DNA of 64,000 nucleotides, taken from NCBI GenBank assembly GCA_028875055.1, contig JAPPGG010000044.1:62001-126000 (forward strand), given 5' to 3'. Below the pieces are notes generated by a model that ran no database searches, was not told the origin of the DNA, and was given only the letters and a program-made list of their open reading frames with translations. Shown in pieces: positions 3,404-20,318 of the stretch (positions are counted from its first letter, which is position 1; every line of letters begins with the position of its first letter). This DNA comes from Chloroflexota bacterium (lineage in GTDB: Bacteria; Chloroflexota; Dehalococcoidia; Lucifugimonadales; UBA3495). The translations under genes and the position numbers were made by a program.

Positions 3404-4374
3404 CAACACCAATCAGCGTGCCGGACCTGCTTTTCAACACTTTCCTGGGCGGTATTCTTAATCTGACCTACTCTGAATCGCCGCTGGAGGGCGACGGTCA
3501 ATGCGTGTCAAGATTGAAGGAAATTGTGATGGAGCTGCCAGGGAAGATTGAAATTTTTGACTCTCCATTGAGTCTTGGGGCAGCGCTTTCCCTGGCCGAT
3601 TCGACGTTGGTTTCCCTGGAGACCATTACTGCGCTGGGGGGCAGCGACCTGATACCTGCAGAGTCCGCTGCGGAGCTTTCGAGTTTGCTGGCTGAATTGT
3701 CGGCCCAACTGGGCGCCGCGCTGCGGCAGCAAAAGGCGGACAGTGTAAGGGGCCTGTACGTCATCATTGACCCTGAGGTGACGGGAGGACGGGAACCGCT
3801 GGAGATTGCCCAGGCTGCCGTTCGAGGCGGAGCCAGGATGTTGCAATTGCGGGACAAACTGCGGGACAAGGGCGAAATCCTTCCATTAGCACAGGACTTG
3901 CAGGCCCTGTGCGAGGCCAGCGACGTGCTGCTGATAGTCAACGATCACGTGGACCTGGCTGCGGCAGTGGGTTCAGGCGGGGTGCACGTGGGGCAGACCG
4001 ACCTGCCAGTGGCCCAGGCGCGGCAGGTGCTGGGGCCGGAACAGGTGCTGGGCCGCTCCAACCGGGAGATTCACCTGCTGGTGGAGTCGCAGGAAATGGG
4101 GGCCGACCACGTGGCGTTTGGCGCAATTTACCAGACCACGACCAAGTCCGGCGGTCGCGGGCCCCAGGGTCCGGAGAGACTAAAGGAGGCGAGGGAGGTT
4201 ACCCACGTGCCGCTGGTAGCCATCGGGGGAATAAATGCGGCTAACGTGGGACCGGTCATCGAATACGGCGCTGACGCAGTGTGCGTAACCGCCGCGGTGG
4301 GACTGGCCCCGGAACCGGAAGCGGCGGCAGCCGAAATGGTTGAGGCCATAAGGCAGGCGGGAGGGAAAGTATAG
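3400..4374 (+). CDS. thiE: Thiamine-phosphate synthase with N-terminal extension
   Basis: The C-terminal ~205 residues are a complete ThiE TIM barrel joining HMP-pyrophosphate and thiazole phosphate in thiamine synthesis. Visible motifs are MLQLRDK, VNDHVDLA, GGVHVGQTDLP, the TTTKSGG substrate loop and VAIGGI. Before the barrel lies a ~110-residue Leu/Ala/Ser-rich segment that I do not recognise; it lacks the features I would expect of the ThiD2 domain seen in some ThiE proteins. The start at 3400 overlaps the previous stop (ATGA) with GAAGGA nine bases upstream. An ATG at 3529 with AAGGA upstream is a good alternative, giving 281 aa. The next gene starts on the last base of the thiE stop codon. 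Confidence 0.9.
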   Translation: MTTPISVPDLLFNTFLGGILNLTYSESPLEGDGQCVSRLKEIVMELPGKIEIFDSPLSLGAALSLADSTLVSLETITALGGSDLIPAESAAELSSLLAELSAQLGAALRQQKADSVRGLYVIIDPEVTGGREPLEIAQAAVRGGARMLQLRDKLRDKGEILPLAQDLQALCEASDVLLIVNDHVDLAAAVGSGGVHVGQTDLPVAQARQVLGPEQVLGRSNREIHLLVESQEMGADHVAFGAIYQTTTKSGGRGPQGPERLKEAREVTHVPLVAIGGINAANVGPVIEYGADAVCVTAAVGLAPEPEAAAAEMVEAIRQAGGKV

Positions 4375-5015
4375 TGCCCTCTGATTACAGCGACGACCTT
4401 TCCCGCATTGCCGCGGGGGCTGTAGAATCCCTGACCCGGCGGCACCAGGCCCGGGAACAGGCCTTGGCAGTATCCCGCGAGGTCATCCGGTTCTCGGCTA
4501 ACGCTATTCGCGCCGTTCACCGGGGCGACTTTGACGACGCCCGGCAACTGATTGACCGGGCCGGTCAGCGCCTGCAGGAGACCCGTCACATACGGGATGA
4601 AAACCCGGAGATCTACTATGCCGGCTTCCTTTCCGACGCAAGAAAGGAATTCACCGAGGCAAGCATCACCCTGGCCGTAATTTCACGGTCGGACATTCCT
4701 GACCCGGACGCAATCGACGTGGACGCTCCGTCTTACCTGAACGGCATGGCGGAAGTCATCGGGGAACTCCGGCGCTACATCCTTGACGCCCTGAGGCGAG
4801 ACTCCTCGGACCATTGCGAGGAGTTCATGGATGTGATGGACGAGATCTATGGCATCCTGGTTACCATCGACTTTCCGGAAGGGGTGACCGGGGGGCTGCG
4901 CAGGAGCACTGACGCCATGAGGGGAGTGCTGGAGCGGACCAGGGGAGACCTGACCATTTCCCTGCAGCAACGTCGCCTGGAGCGGCGGCTGGCTGACATG
5001 GAAAAGCAGTCATAG
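4374..5015 (+). CDS. Translin family protein
   Basis: 213 aa, all-helical, starting with GTG at 4374 that shares one base with the thiE TAG. The hallmarks are RDENPEIYYAGFLSDARKEF-like text in the first half and FPEGVTGGLRRSTDAMRGVL followed by ERTRGDL near the end, typical of the prokaryotic translin/haloacid-related family. Eukaryotic translin binds single-stranded nucleic acid and forms an RNase complex with TRAX; the bacterial role is not established. Tight coupling to thiE suggests co-expression but not necessarily a thiamine function. Confidence 0.85.
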   Translation: MPSDYSDDLSRIAAGAVESLTRRHQAREQALAVSREVIRFSANAIRAVHRGDFDDARQLIDRAGQRLQETRHIRDENPEIYYAGFLSDARKEFTEASITLAVISRSDIPDPDAIDVDAPSYLNGMAEVIGELRRYILDALRRDSSDHCEEFMDVMDEIYGILVTIDFPEGVTGGLRRSTDAMRGVLERTRGDLTISLQQRRLERRLADMEKQS

Positions 5016-5090
5016 GAGAAACGGCCTGCCGGATTTCCCGCCGAACCATGCCTTCAGACCGGCGGCGCAGGCAACAAGGAGCATGTGGCC

Positions 5091-5912
5091 TTGCCAGAAG
5101 CACGAATCTCATTTCTGGGCACCGGGGCGGGGAATTGCATCCACCGGGCCCACACCGCAATAGTACTGGACTGCCCGGACGGGACCCGGCTGCTGCTGGA
5201 TGCCGGGTCGGGAAATTCAGTCCTTCGCAATGGCGCAATGCTGGGATTTTACGCGGAGGACTTTGAACACGTCCTGTTGTCCCACCGCCACGGCGACCAC
5301 ATGGGCGGCCTGCCCCACATACAGGGCCGGCGGACGCAAATAGCCCCCGACGCGGACCCGCTGGTGGTACACAGCCTGGAGGAGTCGCTGGTTGGGCTGC
5401 AGAGCCTCTTCAGGGCCGTCAGCATTACCCACCGGGTGGACCAGGACAGCGTTACCACCACTGAAGGGAACCGGGTGGTTGCCTGGGACCCGGTGGAAGT
5501 AGGGCAGTGGATTACGCTGGGCGGGGATACCCGCGCCTCCTGCTTTCCGGTTGATCATATAGGCGGGGCCGCCGGCTGGAGGGTGGAGACAGGCGGGTTG
5601 ACCATTGTGTTCTCCGGAGATACGAGATACAGCGAGAGCCTGGTCGAGGCTTCGCAGGGCGCCGATGTGCTGATCCACGAAGCCCTGGGCACCGACGACG
5701 ACCGGGAGGGGGCCGCTCGCAGGGGCCACTGCACCGCCGCCGAGGCCGCGCGGGCCGCCGCCCGGTGCGGAGCGGGACAGCTCATCATCACCCACATAGA
5801 CACTCCTTTTCACCTCAACACCGAGGTATTGGCAGCCGAGGCCCGTACCTGTTATGACGGACCTGTATCGGTAGCCGATGACCTTTGCATAACTACTGTC
5901 AGCAGCCACTAG
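5091..5912 (+). CDS. MBL-fold metallo-hydrolase (ribonuclease Z-like)
   Basis: About 273 aa with a metallo-beta-lactamase fold. The N-terminus FLGTGAGN is RNase Z-like, the metal motif SHRHGDHMGG supplies HxHxDH, and FPVDHIGGAAG, FSGDTRYSESL and ITHID supply further metal ligands. The long exosite arm of true tRNase Z is not evident, so tRNA 3' processing is possible but unproven; a phosphodiesterase role is an alternative. A TTG at 5091 lies nine bases after AAGGAG and is preferred over the ORF-track GTG at 5085, where the spacing is only three bases. Confidence 0.85.
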   Translation: MPEARISFLGTGAGNCIHRAHTAIVLDCPDGTRLLLDAGSGNSVLRNGAMLGFYAEDFEHVLLSHRHGDHMGGLPHIQGRRTQIAPDADPLVVHSLEESLVGLQSLFRAVSITHRVDQDSVTTTEGNRVVAWDPVEVGQWITLGGDTRASCFPVDHIGGAAGWRVETGGLTIVFSGDTRYSESLVEASQGADVLIHEALGTDDDREGAARRGHCTAAEAARAAARCGAGQLIITHIDTPFHLNTEVLAAEARTCYDGPVSVADDLCITTVSSH

Positions 5913-7685: not shown

Positions 7686-8966
7686 TTACTGGGGGAGAAT
7701 GGCCTTGAAATTGTCGAAGTACTCCGGGAAGGTCTTGGAGACACACCCGGGGTCGAGGATGGTGATTTCGGCGGTACCCAGGGATGCCAGGGAGAAGCTC
7801 ATGGCCATGCGGTGGTCATTGTAGGTGGAGATTTCGGCCGGCTGTATCTGGCGGGGAGGGTCAATTTCCAGGAAATCGGGACCCTCGACCACCTGGGCGC
7901 CCACCTTGCGGAGTTCCGTGGCCATGGCCGAGAGCCGGTCGGTCTCCTTTACGCGCCAGTTTCCGATGTTGCGGATGATGGTCTTGCCTTCAGCAAACAG
8001 CGCGGTAACGGCGACGGTCATGGCGGCGTCGGGAATGTGGTTAAGGTCCAGGTCCAGGCCCTTGAGGCTGCCCCGGGAGACTTCAATGAAGTCAGCGCCC
8101 CGCCGCACCACCGCGCCCATCCGTTCGAGAATCCCGGCGTGCTGAACGTCGCCCTGGATGCTGTCGGCGCCCACGCCATTGACGCGCACAGTGCCGCCGA
8201 GGATTGCCGCCGCCGAAAGAAAGTAACTGGCGGAAGACGCGTCGCCCTCTACGAGGGCAGTGCCGGGGGACCGGTAAGCCTGCCCACCGGGAACATGGAA
8301 GGCGCGGTAGTTGTCGTTGTCCACCGATACGCCGAAGCGACGCATGACGTCGATGGTCATGTCGATGTAGGGTCTGGATACGAGGTCCCCAATGATTTCG
8401 ATCTGCAGCGCCTCCTGAGCGAGGGGGGAGGCCAGCAGGAGAGCGGTGAGGTACTGGCTGGATACATTTCCGCGAATGGATACGCTGCCTCCGAGAAGTC
8501 CGCTGGCGCGGATTCTAAGGGGAGGGTAGCCCTCCTGTCCTTCGTAGGAAATGTCGGCCCCGAGCTGGCGCAGGGCATCGACCAGGTGGGCGATGGGACG
8601 TTCCAGCATACGTGGTTCGCCCGTAAGAGTGAATTCGCCCTCGCCCAGGCAGAGGGCGGCGCACAGGGGACGAATGGCGGTGCCGGCATTGCCCAGGAAC
8701 AGATCGGCGCGACTTGCCGAGAAGGGTCCGCCCGGGCTTTTCACCAGGCACCTGGCGCCCTCGTCGAAAAATGAGAGGCCAATGCCCAGGGTTTCCAGGG
8801 CGGTGGTCATGTGCTGGGTGTCGTCGCTTTCCAGGAGGTTGCGGACCTCGGTGGTTCCGCTGGCCAGAGAAGAAAGCAGAAGCAAGCGGTTAGACAGGCT
8901 CTTGGAACCGGGAAGCTGGATGACGCCATCTACTCTGCCGGGGGGCTTCAAGGTCAGGGATTCCAT
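7686..8966 (-). CDS. aroA: 3-phosphoshikimate 1-carboxyvinyltransferase (EPSP synthase)
   Basis: About 426 aa. Transfers the enolpyruvyl group of PEP to shikimate-3-phosphate, the sixth step of the shikimate pathway. Visible signatures are [20 protein letters not shown] (substrate-binding Lys/Ser), [12 protein letters not shown], the catalytic-Asp segment [30 protein letters not shown] and [18 protein letters not shown]. The length is normal for the family. The ATG at 8966 has GAGG at good spacing; the ORF-track GTG two codons upstream overlaps that site. No other aromatic-pathway gene is adjacent. Confidence 0.96.
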
Positions 8967-9148
8967 TGGCACCTCGCAGGGGTTTGAGCCCAGAATACCG
9001 ATTGTTTCAAGGGTTGGAGGAAAGGGTATTCAGCTACGGCGAATTTTGACATCGCACGGGTAACAATGTAGCATATCAGTCGCCGGCCTCATTGAAATCT
9101 GGCCGTAAGAAACCAACCAATCACCGAGAAACACAAGAGGGACAATCC

Positions 9149-11470
9149 GTGGCAGACGAACAGACGGCAAATCAGGGGGACGCAACTCACAAGTCCCCCC
9201 TAACACCCCCAAAGGCTAATCCGGCCTTCGCCCGCGCCCTTGATGAACTGGTGTCCCTGGCCAGGCAGGGACACAAGAGTGACTCCCTGAATTTTAACCC
9301 CTCCGATGAGTGGCTGGTCAATAACATGCCGGTATTCCAGGGCATGTCAGGCGAAGATCAGACCAGGGTGCTGGCGGAAGCCAGCGCCATCGAGAAAGAG
9401 AGTGAAGCAGCGAACTCGGCGGGCCGGGCCGCGACCAAGGCATGGCCCGGCGTGGCAGTCAAGCTGGACAGCGGCGGCATAGGCTTTTTCAGCCAGCTGG
9501 GAGTTGTCCGCAGGCCCGACCTGACCCAGTACTACGTGGACGGTTTCACCCCCAACCGGGACGCCCTTTCCTTCAGCGAAGAGAACCAGGCGCTGTTCAC
9601 CGAGGTGTTTGAGTGTATCGTCGCCAGGCTGCGGGAACACCTGGCTTCGGGGCAGACGATAATTCAGACGGACCGTCAGATCTGCGATGCTCCAGGCCGT
9701 TCCTTCCATGCAAGGCAGCTTCTGTTTGGCGTGGACTACCTTCAGCTTCCCTACATGTGGCGTCAGCTGACCTTTGAACTGCCTGAATCGGAACGAACAG
9801 AGACTCCCGACATAATGGAAGTTTCCATACCCCACTGGTTTGATGACCTGGGAATGCCCGAAGACCTGAAGACACGGTTGAAGGAGATGGGCATAAACCA
9901 GCTGGTGTTCAAGGCTCCCACCAAGGGCCTTTCCCTGCACCTGGGCTTTGATTACGTGGGCGAGCACAAGATGGGGCCGCTTTCCATCGCCATGCACCAG
10001 GTCAAGCAGAACAACGGAATTGCCATACAGGCGGCGCTGAGCCTTTCCCGCATCCGGACCATCGCCGGGGCCATGTCCAACACTGCGCTGATTACTGTAG
10101 GCCCGTCGCTGCACGGCAAGAGTACCCTGACGATTATGATCGAACTGGCCAACAGCCAGTTGGCAGGGGTGCTTGGGCTGGCCACAGACCCCGAGGAAGG
10201 GGTTTACCCCATGAACGATGATATCGTGCTGCTGCAGCCGTTGCGGGAGCCGATAGTTTCCGACCGGGAAGGCAACCGGTTCACCATATCCCACAGCATT
10301 GATGGGACCGAGAACAATTTCTATGCCATGCCCTTTGGCCTGAACGAGGCGGACGACCCCATCACCTTTGACGCTGTGCGGGGGTCTGCAACGGAACCAA
10401 ATCCCCAGGAGACCCTGGAGAACGTTCCGGTGGTCTTTGGGGAGAAGGCCGGGGACGCCGCGCCCAACTTCCTGGAGAACCCGGTCCGCAACATGCGCGT
10501 GACACTGTCCCGCCGCAGGCTGCTGGCTCGCAAGGGAGTGGGCGGCCTGATCGAATCCATAACCGGCGGCAAGCTGGCAGATTCGGTCCACGTGCCCATG
10601 GAGTTCACCGACCGCATCTTCTGGCAGGAGGTAATGCGGCAGAATACCGTAATTCCTCCCCTCCGCCGGTTGAGCCTGGAACAATACATACGGGTGCTGA
10701 TGTATGGAGAAGCCGTCCAGATGGGCGCGGCTATCGGAGCAATTGGCCGACCATACGTTGAGTATTTCTCTGACCCGTTCATCATCGGGCTGGAAGATGA
10801 GAACGCCAACCTGATGTACCATATTCTCCAGCAGTTGGCCTGGGGCGGCATGCCACAGGAATACTATGTGTTTAACACGGGAGGAATCGGCGCCGACAGC
10901 AACGAGGAGGCCAGCGGGGCCAACTACCGGAAGATTCCCCGCGAACTGACCCTGATGCTTCAGGAAGCGCTGCTCCGCGATGCCATAAAGTTCGAGTATG
11001 ACCCGATTCTACGGTCGGAAGTCGGCGTGGCGATAGTCAATGCCCAGGGCGACGAACTGGTGGACCTGAGAAAGGAGTGGCTGCCGCAGCGAATTTACGG
11101 CGATGAGGACTATACGGCGCGGGTGCTGGACCTGAGGCGGCGGCGCTATTACGGACGAGATGCCCAGGACAAGGCCGGAATTCTGCGCTACACCAAGGTC
11201 AACAGCGCATTAATTGATTTGGCAGATATCCCCGCCCCTGCTACGGAGCGGGAGCTCGCCTGGCTGCTTTCCTTCTTCTGGCATGTTGACCAGTCATATT
11301 GCTCTCTGGAAGAATTGACCGAGCATATCGGAGAGGGTCAGCGGCCGTTGACCCACCTGCTGCGGGAGTTGCAGGACAAGTATGAGTCGGGACTTTCGCA
11401 GGGTCTGGAAGTCAGCGAAAGCGGCAGGGCCGCAATGTCAATATTGGGGCTGACGCAGTCCCAAGAGTAG
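9149..11470 (+). CDS. Large divergent phosphoenolpyruvate carboxykinase (ATP)-like protein
   Basis: 773 aa from a GTG at 9149 seven bases after AGAGGG; the listed upstream ATG gives a non-conserved leader. Residues from about 300 onward follow the PEPCK(ATP) layout in order: a P-loop GPSLHGKST, a DD pair in YPMNDDIVLL, an ENPVRNMRV segment like ENTRVxY, VIPPLRRLSLEQY like the PPVSKLTPEQ element, and FNTGGIG before the C-terminal mixed domain. The MHCSAN-type metal/His motif normally just before the P-loop is not evident and a ~300-residue N-terminal region is extra, so classical PEPCK activity is doubtful. A related PEPCK-fold kinase or sensor is possible. It is followed by the DUF3090/SCO1664 pair on the same strand. 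Confidence 0.65.
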   Translation: MADEQTANQGDATHKSPLTPPKANPAFARALDELVSLARQGHKSDSLNFNPSDEWLVNNMPVFQGMSGEDQTRVLAEASAIEKESEAANSAGRAATKAWPGVAVKLDSGGIGFFSQLGVVRRPDLTQYYVDGFTPNRDALSFSEENQALFTEVFECIVARLREHLASGQTIIQTDRQICDAPGRSFHARQLLFGVDYLQLPYMWRQLTFELPESERTETPDIMEVSIPHWFDDLGMPEDLKTRLKEMGINQLVFKAPTKGLSLHLGFDYVGEHKMGPLSIAMHQVKQNNGIAIQAALSLSRIRTIAGAMSNTALITVGPSLHGKSTLTIMIELANSQLAGVLGLATDPEEGVYPMNDDIVLLQPLREPIVSDREGNRFTISHSIDGTENNFYAMPFGLNEADDPITFDAVRGSATEPNPQETLENVPVVFGEKAGDAAPNFLENPVRNMRVTLSRRRLLARKGVGGLIESITGGKLADSVHVPMEFTDRIFWQEVMRQNTVIPPLRRLSLEQYIRVLMYGEAVQMGAAIGAIGRPYVEYFSDPFIIGLEDENANLMYHILQQLAWGGMPQEYYVFNTGGIGADSNEEASGANYRKIPRELTLMLQEALLRDAIKFEYDPILRSEVGVAIVNAQGDELVDLRKEWLPQRIYGDEDYTARVLDLRRRRYYGRDAQDKAGILRYTKVNSALIDLADIPAPATERELAWLLSFFWHVDQSYCSLEELTEHIGEGQRPLTHLLRELQDKYESGLSQGLEVSESGRAAMSILGLTQSQE

Positions 11471-11562
11471 AGAGATTAAAGCCGGCTGGAGCATCTGCCG
11501 GCGAATCCTTGCCAGAGGCGGGCATCGCACGTTGCCGGCCAATGATGGAGCCATGACAAGCT

Positions 11563-12099
11563 ATGAGCATGGAACCAGGCAGCATCGCCTTTAGACTGGG
11601 GACCGTCTCCCGGATTGTGGCCGAGACTTTCGGAGAGCCGGGGAAGCGGACCTTCAGACTGGTGCTGGAATCGGGGCGGGCCACCTCTCACGTCTGGCTG
11701 GAAAAGGAGCAGCTTTTCCAGCTGGGGACCGGCCTTAAGGAAGCGGTGGACAGGCAGACCGAGTCCGACAGGGAGAAGGGCAGCGCTCCCATCGAGCCCG
11801 GCTGGGATGGCGACGATACCCTGATAGAGTTCAAGGCCAGGGCCCTTTCTGGGCGGCATGACCCGGACACCAACTCCTTTTACCTGCAGGCCCAGGGAGA
11901 CAGTGACGAGCAGTCGGAGGAAGAAGCGCCTTCCGTGAGTTTCTGGATTACTGTTGACCAGGCAGCGGTGCTGGCCGACGAGAGCCTGCGCATATGCGCC
12001 GCCGGCCGACCGATCTGCTTTCTGTGCGGCCTGCCCATTGACCCGAGCGGCCATGTATGCCCCCGCGCGAACGGCCACGCCGTATTTGAAACAGGTTAG
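11563..12099 (+). CDS. DUF3090 family protein
   Basis: 178 aa. It opens with a beta-rich domain, has an acidic middle (SDEQSEEEA), and ends in a small cysteine knuckle CFLCGLPIDPSGHVCPRANGH that looks like a zinc site. It matches the DUF3090/TIGR03847 family, which I recall as a member of a conserved uncharacterised trio in Actinobacteria together with the SCO1664 family. Here it lies directly before that partner (50 bp) and 92 bp after the PEPCK-like gene. The molecular function is unknown. Confidence 0.8.
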   Translation: MSMEPGSIAFRLGTVSRIVAETFGEPGKRTFRLVLESGRATSHVWLEKEQLFQLGTGLKEAVDRQTESDREKGSAPIEPGWDGDDTLIEFKARALSGRHDPDTNSFYLQAQGDSDEQSEEEAPSVSFWITVDQAAVLADESLRICAAGRPICFLCGLPIDPSGHVCPRANGHAVFETG

Positions 12100-12149
12100 A
12101 CCTGCCTCCCCCGGGTCCATCTCCCTGAGGGTCTTGAAGGACGAACCAG

Positions 12150-12854
12150 GTGGCATCAGACCAGAGTAACGGCGACGTTCTCCGGAATGGAGAATTTCAG
12201 ACCTGCGAACTTACCCCCCTGGGCTCCAACTACACCTTTGTGGCTTCCCTGCAGCTGGGCGACCAGACCGGGCAGGCCATCTACAAGCCCCGAGATGGGG
12301 AAGTTCCTCTATGGGACTTTCCCAGGGGCACACTCTACAAGCGGGAATACGGGGCCTACCTGCTTAGCGAGGTGCTGGGCTGGAACTTCATACCCCGCAC
12401 CATTATCCGGGAAGGGCCCTACGGCATAGGGTCGGTCCAGCAGTACGTGGACCACGACCCGCGGATGAACTACTACACCCTGAGTGACGGCGATGCCGAA
12501 GACCTGCGGATGATCTGCTGTTTCGACCTGGTGGCGAACAACACCGATCGCAAGGCAAATCATGTCCTGGTCGATGAGAAGGGCAAGCTGTGGGGAATAG
12601 ACCAGGGGCTGACCTTCCACTCGGACACGAAGATACGAACGGTCATCTGGGACTTTGGGGGCGAACCCATTCCCGAGGCCTATCTTTCGTCGCTTTCCAC
12701 TTTGCTGGGGCAGTTCATCAACCCGGGCGGCACGTTCAAGGAATTGCTGGACCTGCTGTTGCCCGAAGAAGTGACGGCCCTGCAAAAGCGCATTCAATGG
12801 GTGCTGTCGGAAAGGGCCTTCCCGGGAATACCGGGGCGCCGGCGCCGACATTAA
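12150..12854 (+). CDS. SCO1664 family protein (PI3/4-kinase-like fold)
   Basis: 234 aa, GTG start preceded by AAGGACG. Features recalling the family and distant phosphatidylinositol-kinase similarity are AIYKPRDGE (candidate nucleotide-binding Lys), YKREYGAYLLSEVLGW, a catalytic-loop-like DLVANNTDRKANHVL and GIDQGLTFH resembling a metal-binding DxG. Family members are conserved in Actinobacteria and some Chloroflexi and are uncharacterised. Adjacent to its usual partner DUF3090, suggesting a shared pathway. The phosphomutase that completes the actinobacterial trio is not next to them here. Confidence 0.8.
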   Translation: MASDQSNGDVLRNGEFQTCELTPLGSNYTFVASLQLGDQTGQAIYKPRDGEVPLWDFPRGTLYKREYGAYLLSEVLGWNFIPRTIIREGPYGIGSVQQYVDHDPRMNYYTLSDGDAEDLRMICCFDLVANNTDRKANHVLVDEKGKLWGIDQGLTFHSDTKIRTVIWDFGGEPIPEAYLSSLSTLLGQFINPGGTFKELLDLLLPEEVTALQKRIQWVLSERAFPGIPGRRRRH

Positions 12855-17621: not shown

Positions 17622-20318
17622 TTAGCGCTGGACGATGGTGGTACCTTCCTGAGCCGTGATGGGCTGGCCGAACTCGGCGTACCTCAGGGTGGCAGAGGCG
17701 ACCACGTCACCGGCGCTTACTGCCTCAACTGTGACCGTGTATTCGAGCTCACCACCGGCTTCCAGCGACGGGACTGCGGTGTAGGTTACCGTGCCGCCGG
17801 AAATGGTGCCGCCTGCGGCTGTGATTATGGCGAACTGGGCCGGTACGGTAACCGTCAGCCTCACGTCAGTCATCGGGGAATCGTCGCTCTGGTTGGTAAT
17901 GACTACCGTGTAACTGCCCTCTTCACCGACGCCCATGGGGTCAACGCCGTCGATGATACTCAGGTGCGCCGCCGCGGCCGCCAGGATCTGGATATTCAGC
18001 ACAGCGTCAGCAGAGGCTCCCTCAGCCGAGGTGACGTTGGCGGTGTTAATTACGGCGCCAACGGACTCGCCACGCAGGGTGACATTTACGTCCACCGTAG
18101 CTCCGACTGCCAGGTCGCCAATGGACCAGGTCACTACCCCGTCGGCTTCCTGTCCGCCGTTGTCGCTGGACACGTAGGACATTTCGGCCGGGATATTGTC
18201 GGTTATGGTCACGTCCGTCAGGTTAGCCGTACCCGTGTTGGTGGCGGAAATGGTGTAGGTACGCTCGCCGTCCACGTACAGGGCCGAGCCGCCGGACTTG
18301 GCCAGGCTTACGGCAGGTACGAGGACACCAATAGTGGCGTCGGCGGTTACCGTCACGCCCCGCTCGGTAGCAGATACGGTGTTAGTAAGCGTCCCGCCAA
18401 CGGTGGAGGTGGCGTTGATCGTAATGTTGGCCGTGCCACCGGGTTCGATGGCTGCGATGGTCCACTGGAGGCTGCCGTCCGCACCTACGCTGGCCTCGGG
18501 TTCGGCAGTAACGTTCTGGAACTCGAGGGGCAGCGCGTCCACGACCGCCACGTTGGTGGCAGTAGCGTCGCCGTTGTTGGTTACGGCAATGGTGTAAACG
18601 GTCGGCTGACCCAGGATGGGAGCAGCGTTATCGGCCGTCTTGGTAATCGACAGGTCCGACCTGGTAACCAGAGTCGTGGCCTGGGCAGAGGCGGTGGCGC
18701 CCTCATCGGACAGAACGTTGGCCGTGTTGACCACCTCCCCCGGGTCGCCGGTAGTCGCTACCAGGGTGACTGTAGCCGTAGCCTCGGAGTCCAGGGACTC
18801 GATCAGCCAGCTAACCCTGCCGTCGGCCCCAACCGCCGCCTCGGGTGAGCTGGACACATAGGTCAGGCCCAGAGGCAGGGTGTCGGTGAGAACGATGTTG
18901 GTCAGCGCGCCGGCGCCGTCGTTGGTAACGGTGATTTCGTAGGTCACGTCGTCGCCGGAGACGGTTTCCGTGGGACCGCTCTTGGCCAGCTGGAGGGAGC
19001 CAGGAATGACGCTGGTAAGCGAAGTGTCCTGGCCGGTGATGCCCTCAACAGAGACGGCGGTGGCGGTGTTAATCTGCTCGCCCACGTTGTTGGCGGACAG
19101 TACCATGGTGACTTCCACGGAGGCTCCCGGAGCGATGTCGCCCAGGCTCCAGGTAATGGTGCTGCCTGCAGCGCTGGCGGCTTCGGGAGTAGAGCTGACG
19201 AAGGTCAGGCCCTGGGGCAGTTCGTCGGTAAGGGTGACATTGGTAGCCGTGGAGTCCCCGCTGTTAGTGACGGAGACGCTGTATTCGGCGGTCTTCCTCA
19301 GACCCAGGCTGGGAGGACCTTCCTTGTTGACTTCGAGGGTGGGCGACTGCCACTGCTTGGTGTGGGTGTGGCTGAACATCGTCTTGTTGGTGCCGGCTTC
19401 CAGGACCTGGATATAGACCTGGTTGTCGCCGATGGCGGGTTCAACCTGCTGCAAGGTTACGACGGTTTCGCCGTTGGCGTTGGTAGTGGTGGCCGCAGCC
19501 TGTCCCACACCATCAAGGGTGGCGGCGGGGTCTGCGTCCACAACCGACCAGGCCACGTTCACGTCGGCAATGGGGGAGCCGTCGGTTACCTTGCTGACCC
19601 TGACCAGCATGGGGTGATCCGTGCCGACAAGATTGACGGCGTCGGAGGGGAACTCGACGCTCATATCCACCCAGTGCTTGACCGCGAAGACCTTGTGGGT
19701 ATCGTTATCAACGATCTGGGGGACGAAAGCCGTCACGTCGGTATCGCCGGGGCGGGTTGCCGTGATGGTCAAGGTTGCCTGACCACTGTCGTCGGTCATA
19801 ACCCGTCCGAAATAGTTGTCCACTTTGCGAGGGTTTTCCCCGCCCAAGGAAACAATGTCGCCAACGGCTTCATCGAACCGATTGAGGAAAACCTCAACCT
19901 CGACACCAGTGGCGGGGGCGCCATCTGCGCCGTTAACGGTAACGGTGAAGGTGTGCTGGTCGAAAATGGAATTCCAGTCCTCAACCGGGCTGATGCTCAC
20001 CGAGGTGGGAGCGGGGCCCTCGGCCTGGGGAACGGACGTCTTTTCAATAGCTGCCGGGGACTGATTCTCAACCAGGTCGGCCCGGGTATCCTGTTCGAGC
20101 CTTAGTTGGGGGAACCTGGTGTAGGTGGCCACCGAAGCGGTGGCGGGGGGCTCGTCAGTGTCGGGGATCAGGTGGGGAGAGTCAATTTGATTCACTATGC
20201 CAGGCGCGCTGGAAGGGGATGATGTGAGGAGCATACTGCCGGCCACAACTCCGGCCAAAGCAAGCACGGCAAAAATGCCAATCATCCAATGGACGCTTTT
20301 AAACATAGACAGGTTCAT
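17622..20318 (-). CDS. Secreted or surface protein with DUF11 repeats
   Basis: 898 aa. A single hydrophobic segment at residues ~10-33 could be a signal peptide or an N-terminal anchor. Residues ~100-330 look like two immunoglobulin/Big-1-like domains (DGAPATGVEVEVFLN, then DGSPIADVNVAWSV). Then come about five DUF11 repeats of ~110 residues, each with a YTIxVTNxGDxxATNV-type strand, LPxGLTYVSSxPEA and a WSIGDLxPGAxVxVTV-type strand, built of Thr/Val/Ala-rich beta strands. Such proteins form cell-surface stalks, adhesins or S-layer material. No C-terminal sorting signal is evident. The start codon follows AGGAAGG. It is isolated and divergent from rpoB. Confidence 0.85.
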   Translation of the reverse strand: MNLSMFKSVHWMIGIFAVLALAGVVAGSMLLTSSPSSAPGIVNQIDSPHLIPDTDEPPATASVATYTRFPQLRLEQDTRADLVENQSPAAIEKTSVPQAEGPAPTSVSISPVEDWNSIFDQHTFTVTVNGADGAPATGVEVEVFLNRFDEAVGDIVSLGGENPRKVDNYFGRVMTDDSGQATLTITATRPGDTDVTAFVPQIVDNDTHKVFAVKHWVDMSVEFPSDAVNLVGTDHPMLVRVSKVTDGSPIADVNVAWSVVDADPAATLDGVGQAAATTTNANGETVVTLQQVEPAIGDNQVYIQVLEAGTNKTMFSHTHTKQWQSPTLEVNKEGPPSLGLRKTAEYSVSVTNSGDSTATNVTLTDELPQGLTFVSSTPEAASAAGSTITWSLGDIAPGASVEVTMVLSANNVGEQINTATAVSVEGITGQDTSLTSVIPGSLQLAKSGPTETVSGDDVTYEITVTNDGAGALTNIVLTDTLPLGLTYVSSSPEAAVGADGRVSWLIESLDSEATATVTLVATTGDPGEVVNTANVLSDEGATASAQATTLVTRSDLSITKTADNAAPILGQPTVYTIAVTNNGDATATNVAVVDALPLEFQNVTAEPEASVGADGSLQWTIAAIEPGGTANITINATSTVGGTLTNTVSATERGVTVTADATIGVLVPAVSLAKSGGSALYVDGERTYTISATNTGTANLTDVTITDNIPAEMSYVSSDNGGQEADGVVTWSIGDLAVGATVDVNVTLRGESVGAVINTANVTSAEGASADAVLNIQILAAAAAHLSIIDGVDPMGVGEEGSYTVVITNQSDDSPMTDVRLTVTVPAQFAIITAAGGTISGGTVTYTAVPSLEAGGELEYTVTVEAVSAGDVVASATLRYAEFGQPITAQEGTTIVQR

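Follow-up and report, generated by a model that had tools for sequence, protein, structure and literature searches.

The locus and the PEPCK-like gene

Gluconeogenesis has its branch point at phosphoenolpyruvate carboxykinase (PEPCK), whose Mn site is regarded as essential. In a stretch of 64,000 nucleotides from a Chloroflexota bacterium (assembly GCA_028875055.1, contig JAPPGG010000044.1, positions 62,001 to 126,000; hereafter the window) lies a PEPCK-like gene whose product belongs to a family in which two of the three ligands of that site are replaced; two genes of the DUF3090 and SCO1664 families follow it. The host genome (3.75 Mb) is 98% complete, and its relatives are metagenome-assembled genomes (MAGs) of the SAR202 cluster and Dehalococcoidia. 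The gene, which begins with a GTG codon, is real, and it was mapped with the following features.

9149-11470, forward strand: PEPCK-like protein of 773 amino acids (aa), member of a SAR202 family of ~770 aa (open reading frame, profiles and fold)
11153-11467, forward strand: C-terminal extension, residues 669-773 (conserved, helical, no fold match in the PDB)
9046-9074, forward strand: sigma-70-like promoter match, TTGACA-17-TAGCAT, upstream of the start (a consensus match only)

An earlier note on this DNA had taken the protein for a divergent PEPCK homologue, and the searches bear this out. The Pfam model PEPCK_ATP (PF01293) matched it at 5e-8, with 32.5 bits against a gathering score of 26.5, and the NCBIfam PEPCK subfamily NF006821 matched it at an E value of 1.3e-42, but with 146 bits against a cut-off of 369. 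TIGR00224 was not reported in the NCBIfam search, and no cut-off of a curated PEPCK subfamily or equivalog was passed. Comparison of the family profile with those of PEPCKs gave an E value of 6.6e-38 across 467 columns. An AlphaFold model of the protein, built from 26 orthologues (pLDDT 84, pTM 0.86), was submitted to Foldseek, and the top 35 PDB matches were all ATP-PEPCKs (E 4e-22 to 2e-19, TM of 0.74 or less by target length); neither the protein nor its profile found a PEPCK when searched by sequence against the PDB. By sequence, by profile and by predicted fold the 773-aa protein is a PEPCK homologue. An Rfam search of the locus found nothing. In the literature no paper on the ~770-aa family was found, and papers on SAR202 genomes treat gluconeogenesis in general terms only.

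The structural alignment to Escherichia coli PckA (PF01293; PDB 1AYL/1AQ2) that had been proposed in the same note showed a shared fold, with ~14% identity over the alignment. The protein is 233 residues longer than PckA, and the ~300 extra N-terminal residues that had been claimed for it proved to be an error. In the MAFFT alignment E. coli Arg65 falls on Arg121, an offset of 56, so that ~56 residues are added at the N-terminus and the remaining ~177 are internal insertions (~90) or belong to the C-terminal extension (~87). A fold search with the C-terminal extension found nothing significant in the PDB.

Active site

The active site was compared with that of PckA in a MAFFT alignment of 28 family sequences, with which an independent profile-profile alignment agreed; E. 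coli numbering is used for the reference residues. The positions that matter are these.

9509-9511, forward strand: Arg121, equivalent to Arg65 (substrate carboxylate), invariant
9953-9973, forward strand: Y-V-G-E-H-K-M, residues 269-275, with the equivalents of Tyr207 and Lys212 kept (alignment)
within 9953-9973, forward strand: His273, new and invariant
within 9953-9973, forward strand: Met275 in place of the Mn ligand Lys213 (alignment)
10028-10030, forward strand: Gln294 in place of the Mn ligand His232, invariant
10100-10123, forward strand: P-loop GPSLHGKS, residues 318-325, with Leu and His in place of Gly251 and Thr252, invariant
10217-10222, forward strand: Asp357-Asp358, equivalent to Asp268-Asp269 (metal/phosphate aspartates), in an invariant MNDD (alignment)
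10328-10330, forward strand: Met394 in place of Lys288, Met or Val across the family (alignment)
10496-10498, forward strand: Arg450, equivalent to Arg333, invariant

As the earlier note had stated, the P-loop and the paired aspartates are kept; in the family both are invariant. The MHCSAN-type motif, which the note had taken to be apparently lacking, is indeed missing, the position of His232 being occupied by Gln. The equivalents of Arg65, Tyr207, Lys212, Ser250, Lys254, Asp268, Asp269, Arg333 and Thr455 were found in all 28 sequences. In contrast to PckA, the family has His for Thr252, Met or Val for Lys288 (28/28), and Met for Lys213 together with Gln for His232 in every one of the 77 complete sequences counted over all loci (His-Lys-Met, with Gln at +19). 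A part of these 77 loci had been found by a pattern that includes the His-Lys-Met motif, and the 26 sequences from whole-protein searches show the same residues. His232 and Lys288 are catalytic residues of PEPCK. In rat PCK1 the residue that corresponds to Lys213, Lys244, coordinates Mn, and blocking it leaves ~1% of the activity or less (PMC7948413).

On these alignments, the ATP-binding and phosphoryl-transfer half of the site is intact and the catalytic Mn site is rebuilt, with two of its three ligands replaced. The gene should not be filed as PckA, because the defining metal ligands Lys213 and His232 were looked for and are not there. The same caution holds for the ~770-aa genes at large, which are not to be annotated as PckA, nor should their genomes be concluded to be without gluconeogenesis.

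Such a pattern, in which two Mn ligands and Lys288 are replaced in every member and the phosphoryl-transfer residues are invariant, might be expected of a neofunctionalised kinase that kept the PEPCK fold, ATP binding and phosphoryl transfer, lost the decarboxylase chemistry, and phosphorylates some other carboxylate-bearing small molecule or a protein, as HPr kinase does on the same fold. The conserved C-terminal extension and insertions also favour it, as does the stem branch of the family in the protein tree, which is as long as the branch to canonical PckA. The substrate side of the pocket speaks against it, since the equivalents of Arg65, Tyr207 and Lys212 are kept.

Distribution and selection

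Of the 250 genomes of the order, 75 hold full-length orthologues (54-94% identity); the search had listed 79, of which four were matches to a shorter form and were left out. No orthologue outside the order turned up among 250 genomes sampled evenly from the phylum. A motif scan of 84,980 species gave 78 loci, all but two of which carry SAR202, Dehalococcoidia or Chloroflexi in their labels; judged by title, the other two are a Deltaproteobacteria MAG (L182) and a Planctomycetales MAG (L194). The scan demanded short exact motifs, and more distant branches could be missed. As sampled, the ~770-aa family is found almost only in SAR202 Chloroflexota, which are abundant ocean bacteria.

A simple count put dN/dS against three close relatives at ~0.04-0.09; for two of the three, synonymous sites were close to saturation. 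A chance open reading frame is excluded by this value and by the identity kept across the 75 genomes. The same observations bear on the proposal that the protein is a pseudoenzyme or nucleotide sensor, which would bind ATP and act through protein contact with no catalysis. Three residues important to PEPCK catalysis are gone, as such a role would allow, yet all phosphoryl-transfer residues are invariant across the whole range of identity and under this strong constraint, and pseudoenzymes as a rule no longer have the P-loop lysine or the aspartates. We consider this proposal unlikely. That the protein is an enzyme seems the likelier case because the phosphoryl-transfer residues (Lys324, Asp357/358, Arg450) are kept under strong selection.

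Other PEPCK forms and PEP-forming enzymes

The closest family by profile is the short, divergent PEPCK of NF006821 (PRK09344.1-3; ~500-555 aa; Chloroflexota and haloarchaeal plasmids), which shares the YxGExK motif and is without the long C-terminal extension of the ~770-aa family. The ~540-aa forms keep Lys213, His232 and Lys288 in 13 of 13 sampled sequences, unlike the ~770-aa family, and by eye the short form of a haloarchaeal plasmid keeps all three as well. On a Haloarcula plasmid (L213, 3815-5320) a short form lies between two 3-dehydroquinate dehydratase genes and near a malic enzyme gene. The ~555-aa SAR202 form (L094, L095, L207, L208) has Met for Lys213 like the ~770-aa family but keeps His232 and Lys288 (4/4); with only one Mn ligand changed, it makes a natural half-way case for the metal site. 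With GTP-PEPCK (PF00821) the general fold is common, and the PF00821 model had no match in the host genome.

Profile searches, on which all absences in the host genome rest, found there no canonical ATP-PckA, GTP-PEPCK, pyruvate phosphate dikinase (PPDK) or phosphoenolpyruvate (PEP) synthase, and no malate synthase. With none of these four PEP-forming enzymes present, the PEPCK-like gene is the host's only recognised PEP-forming candidate. Across the order no genome carries two PEPCK forms (75 against 4 + 2 + 3, overlap 0), and the four genomes with the ~555-aa form, which are of the same family as the host, are all without the ~770-aa form. Complementarity with PPDK or PEP synthase was considered as a functional test and was not discriminating across the order.

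The two forms were also seen at one and the same place. In genus g176 the PEPCK-like gene sits between a quinone oxidoreductase (QOR) gene and a SAM-GreA gene, and the ~555-aa PEPCK takes up the QOR/SAM-GreA interval, on the opposite strand, in four genomes from three further genera, although the contig end cuts off the far flank in one of the four and no oxidoreductase was detected in another (loci of both forms: L085-L088, L094, L095, L207-L209). Displacement of one form by the other is more likely than descent, because the tree does not join the two forms and their orientations differ. The shared Met at Lys213 and the common interval had suggested that the ~770-aa form descends directly from the ~555-aa form, an idea that was rejected on these grounds.

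All 14 of 14 genomes of genus g162 have malate synthase A (TIGR01344, 724 bits) immediately after the PEPCK-like gene. Co-occurrence with malate synthase across the order was not discriminating as a test, and only this adjacency is informative.

Proposed function

We tentatively favour, as a reading whose chances we put at slightly under even, that the protein occupies the PEPCK niche as an ATP-dependent phosphotransferase with the PEPCK fold, acting on oxaloacetate/PEP or a very close dicarboxylate, with its second-metal site remodelled. ATP-Mg would be bound by the P-loop and Asp357, and the gamma-phosphate would move between ATP and an enolate or carboxylate oxygen that Arg121, Tyr269 and Arg450 hold in position. 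A weaker or relocated metal site, made up of Gln294, Asp358 and the new invariant His273 and/or His322, might substitute for the Lys-His-Asp site. The lean towards oxaloacetate/PEP comes from the displacement with PEPCK, the zero co-occurrence and the metabolic context, and the lean away from it from the rebuilding of the metal site.

Several observations weigh against this assignment. Lys213, His232 and Lys288 are lost invariantly, and little activity survives a block of the matching lysine in rat PCK1 (PMC7948413). The ~555-aa form is no certain standard for PEPCK activity because it too is without Lys213. The zero overlap of PEPCK forms is statistically weak (~2.7 expected, p ~0.04, with no correction for phylogeny). 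The malate synthase link is limited to one genus, and the host genome has no such enzyme. PPDK is also present in 32 of the 75 genomes with the PEPCK-like gene, and up to 82 genomes of the order (some perhaps not sampled) are without any known PEP-forming enzyme; for these two reasons the standing of the gene as sole candidate is no proof.

A new substrate, as in the kinase described above, is nearly as likely as the PEPCK niche. The co-presence of PPDK in 32 genomes adds to the case for this kinase, and the displacement in a shared interval, the zero co-occurrence with other PEPCKs and the malate synthase adjacency in one genus count against it. Taken more broadly, and held with a little more reserve than the PEPCK niche itself, a lineage-specific PEPCK branch may have left the canonical Lys-His-Asp Mn site and kept phosphoryl transfer, running either the PEPCK reaction on a rebuilt site (Gln294, Asp358, His273, His322) or a new phosphotransfer. 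As two of the three Mn ligands are replaced without exception in widespread marine bacteria, some of which have no other recognised PEP-making enzyme, the family offers a way to ask if the enzyme can do without that metal site or instead carries out an altered reaction.

Neighbouring genes

Upstream and downstream of the PEPCK-like gene the following features were mapped.

7686-8972, reverse strand: aroA (EPSP synthase, a PEP consumer), divergent neighbour upstream (profile search)
11563-12099, forward strand: DUF3090 family protein, 178 aa (PF11290, 1.6e-27, 96.8 bits against a gathering cut-off of 27)
12016-12060, forward strand: CFLC...HVC (CxxC..HxC), putative metal site at the C-terminus of the DUF3090 protein (motif)
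12150-12854, forward strand: SCO1664 family protein, 234 aa, PI3/PI4-kinase-like (TIGR03843, 240 bits against a cut-off of 172)

The divergent aroA is also found in other members of the genus and in the sister genus. A motif of the CxxC..HxC type has been described for the DUF3090 family (PMC9425974), and SCO1664 has been linked to mshC in actinobacteria (PMC4255298). As in the known pair (TIGR03847, TIGR03843), both genes are present here, adjoining and in the same order; unlike it, the DUF3090 protein falls below the TIGR03847 cut-off (92.7 against 117 bits) and no TIGR03848 partner over the cut-off was found in the host genome (best 100 against 204 bits). TIGR03843, TIGR03847 and TIGR03848 form a trio of associated families.

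The earlier note had described the two families as known to travel together and had suggested a phospho-transfer or nucleotide-dependent pathway, by implication one that includes the PEPCK-like protein. The first part is confirmed, as TIGR03843 was found in 209 and TIGR03847 in 210 of the 250 genomes of the order, side by side nearly everywhere. The pathway could draw on the common strand, the short gaps (92 bases from PEPCK-like to DUF3090, 50 from DUF3090 to SCO1664), the lack of a strong terminator between the genes in the host's own genus, the kinase-like SCO1664 protein and the CxxC..HxC motif. However, the PEPCK-like gene adjoins the pair only in four genomes of its own genus (G000, G423, G424, G425) and one of a sister genus (G443, a sister in the protein tree too). 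By a hand count, ~57 further genomes have readable coordinates for both, and there the genes fall on separate contigs or are separated by 10 kb to >1 Mb. Where genomes are fragmented, a separate contig does not in itself exclude proximity, but in the single-contig genomes G438, G439, G440, G284 and G296 the distance is ~200 kb or more. The PEPCK-like gene is absent from well over a hundred genomes that have the pair, and most of the genomes that lack this gene carry the pair. With adjacency confined to the own and one sister genus, the joint pathway is not supported and we hold it to be very improbable; a conserved operon of the three genes was likewise rejected outside these two genera. Across the order the pair stays together, and its linkage to the PEPCK-like gene is not conserved beyond close relatives. 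The note had named two things that together would refute its reading: a canonical PckA elsewhere, of which the genome has none, and missing conserved linkage, which is what was found. The pair would then be a unit of its own which, in this lineage, has ended up next to the PEPCK-like gene. In G418 (L078, 17091-19200) the pair comes directly after a SAM-GreA-like gene, and the PEPCK-like gene is 10 kb away.

Elsewhere in the window, a reverse-strand gene (17622-20318) encodes a probable surface protein of 898 aa that contains DUF11 repeats. On the forward strand, at 4374-5015, lies a bacterial translin/TRAX homologue (phmmer 1.8e-23 to Archaeoglobus AFTRAX, 3zc1; Pfam Translin 19.6 bits, below the cut-off), 69 bases upstream of a gene of the metallo-beta-lactamase fold (5085-5912, forward strand). 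The genus and the sister genus share this adjacency and gene order, and it is possible that the two genes form an RNA-processing unit.

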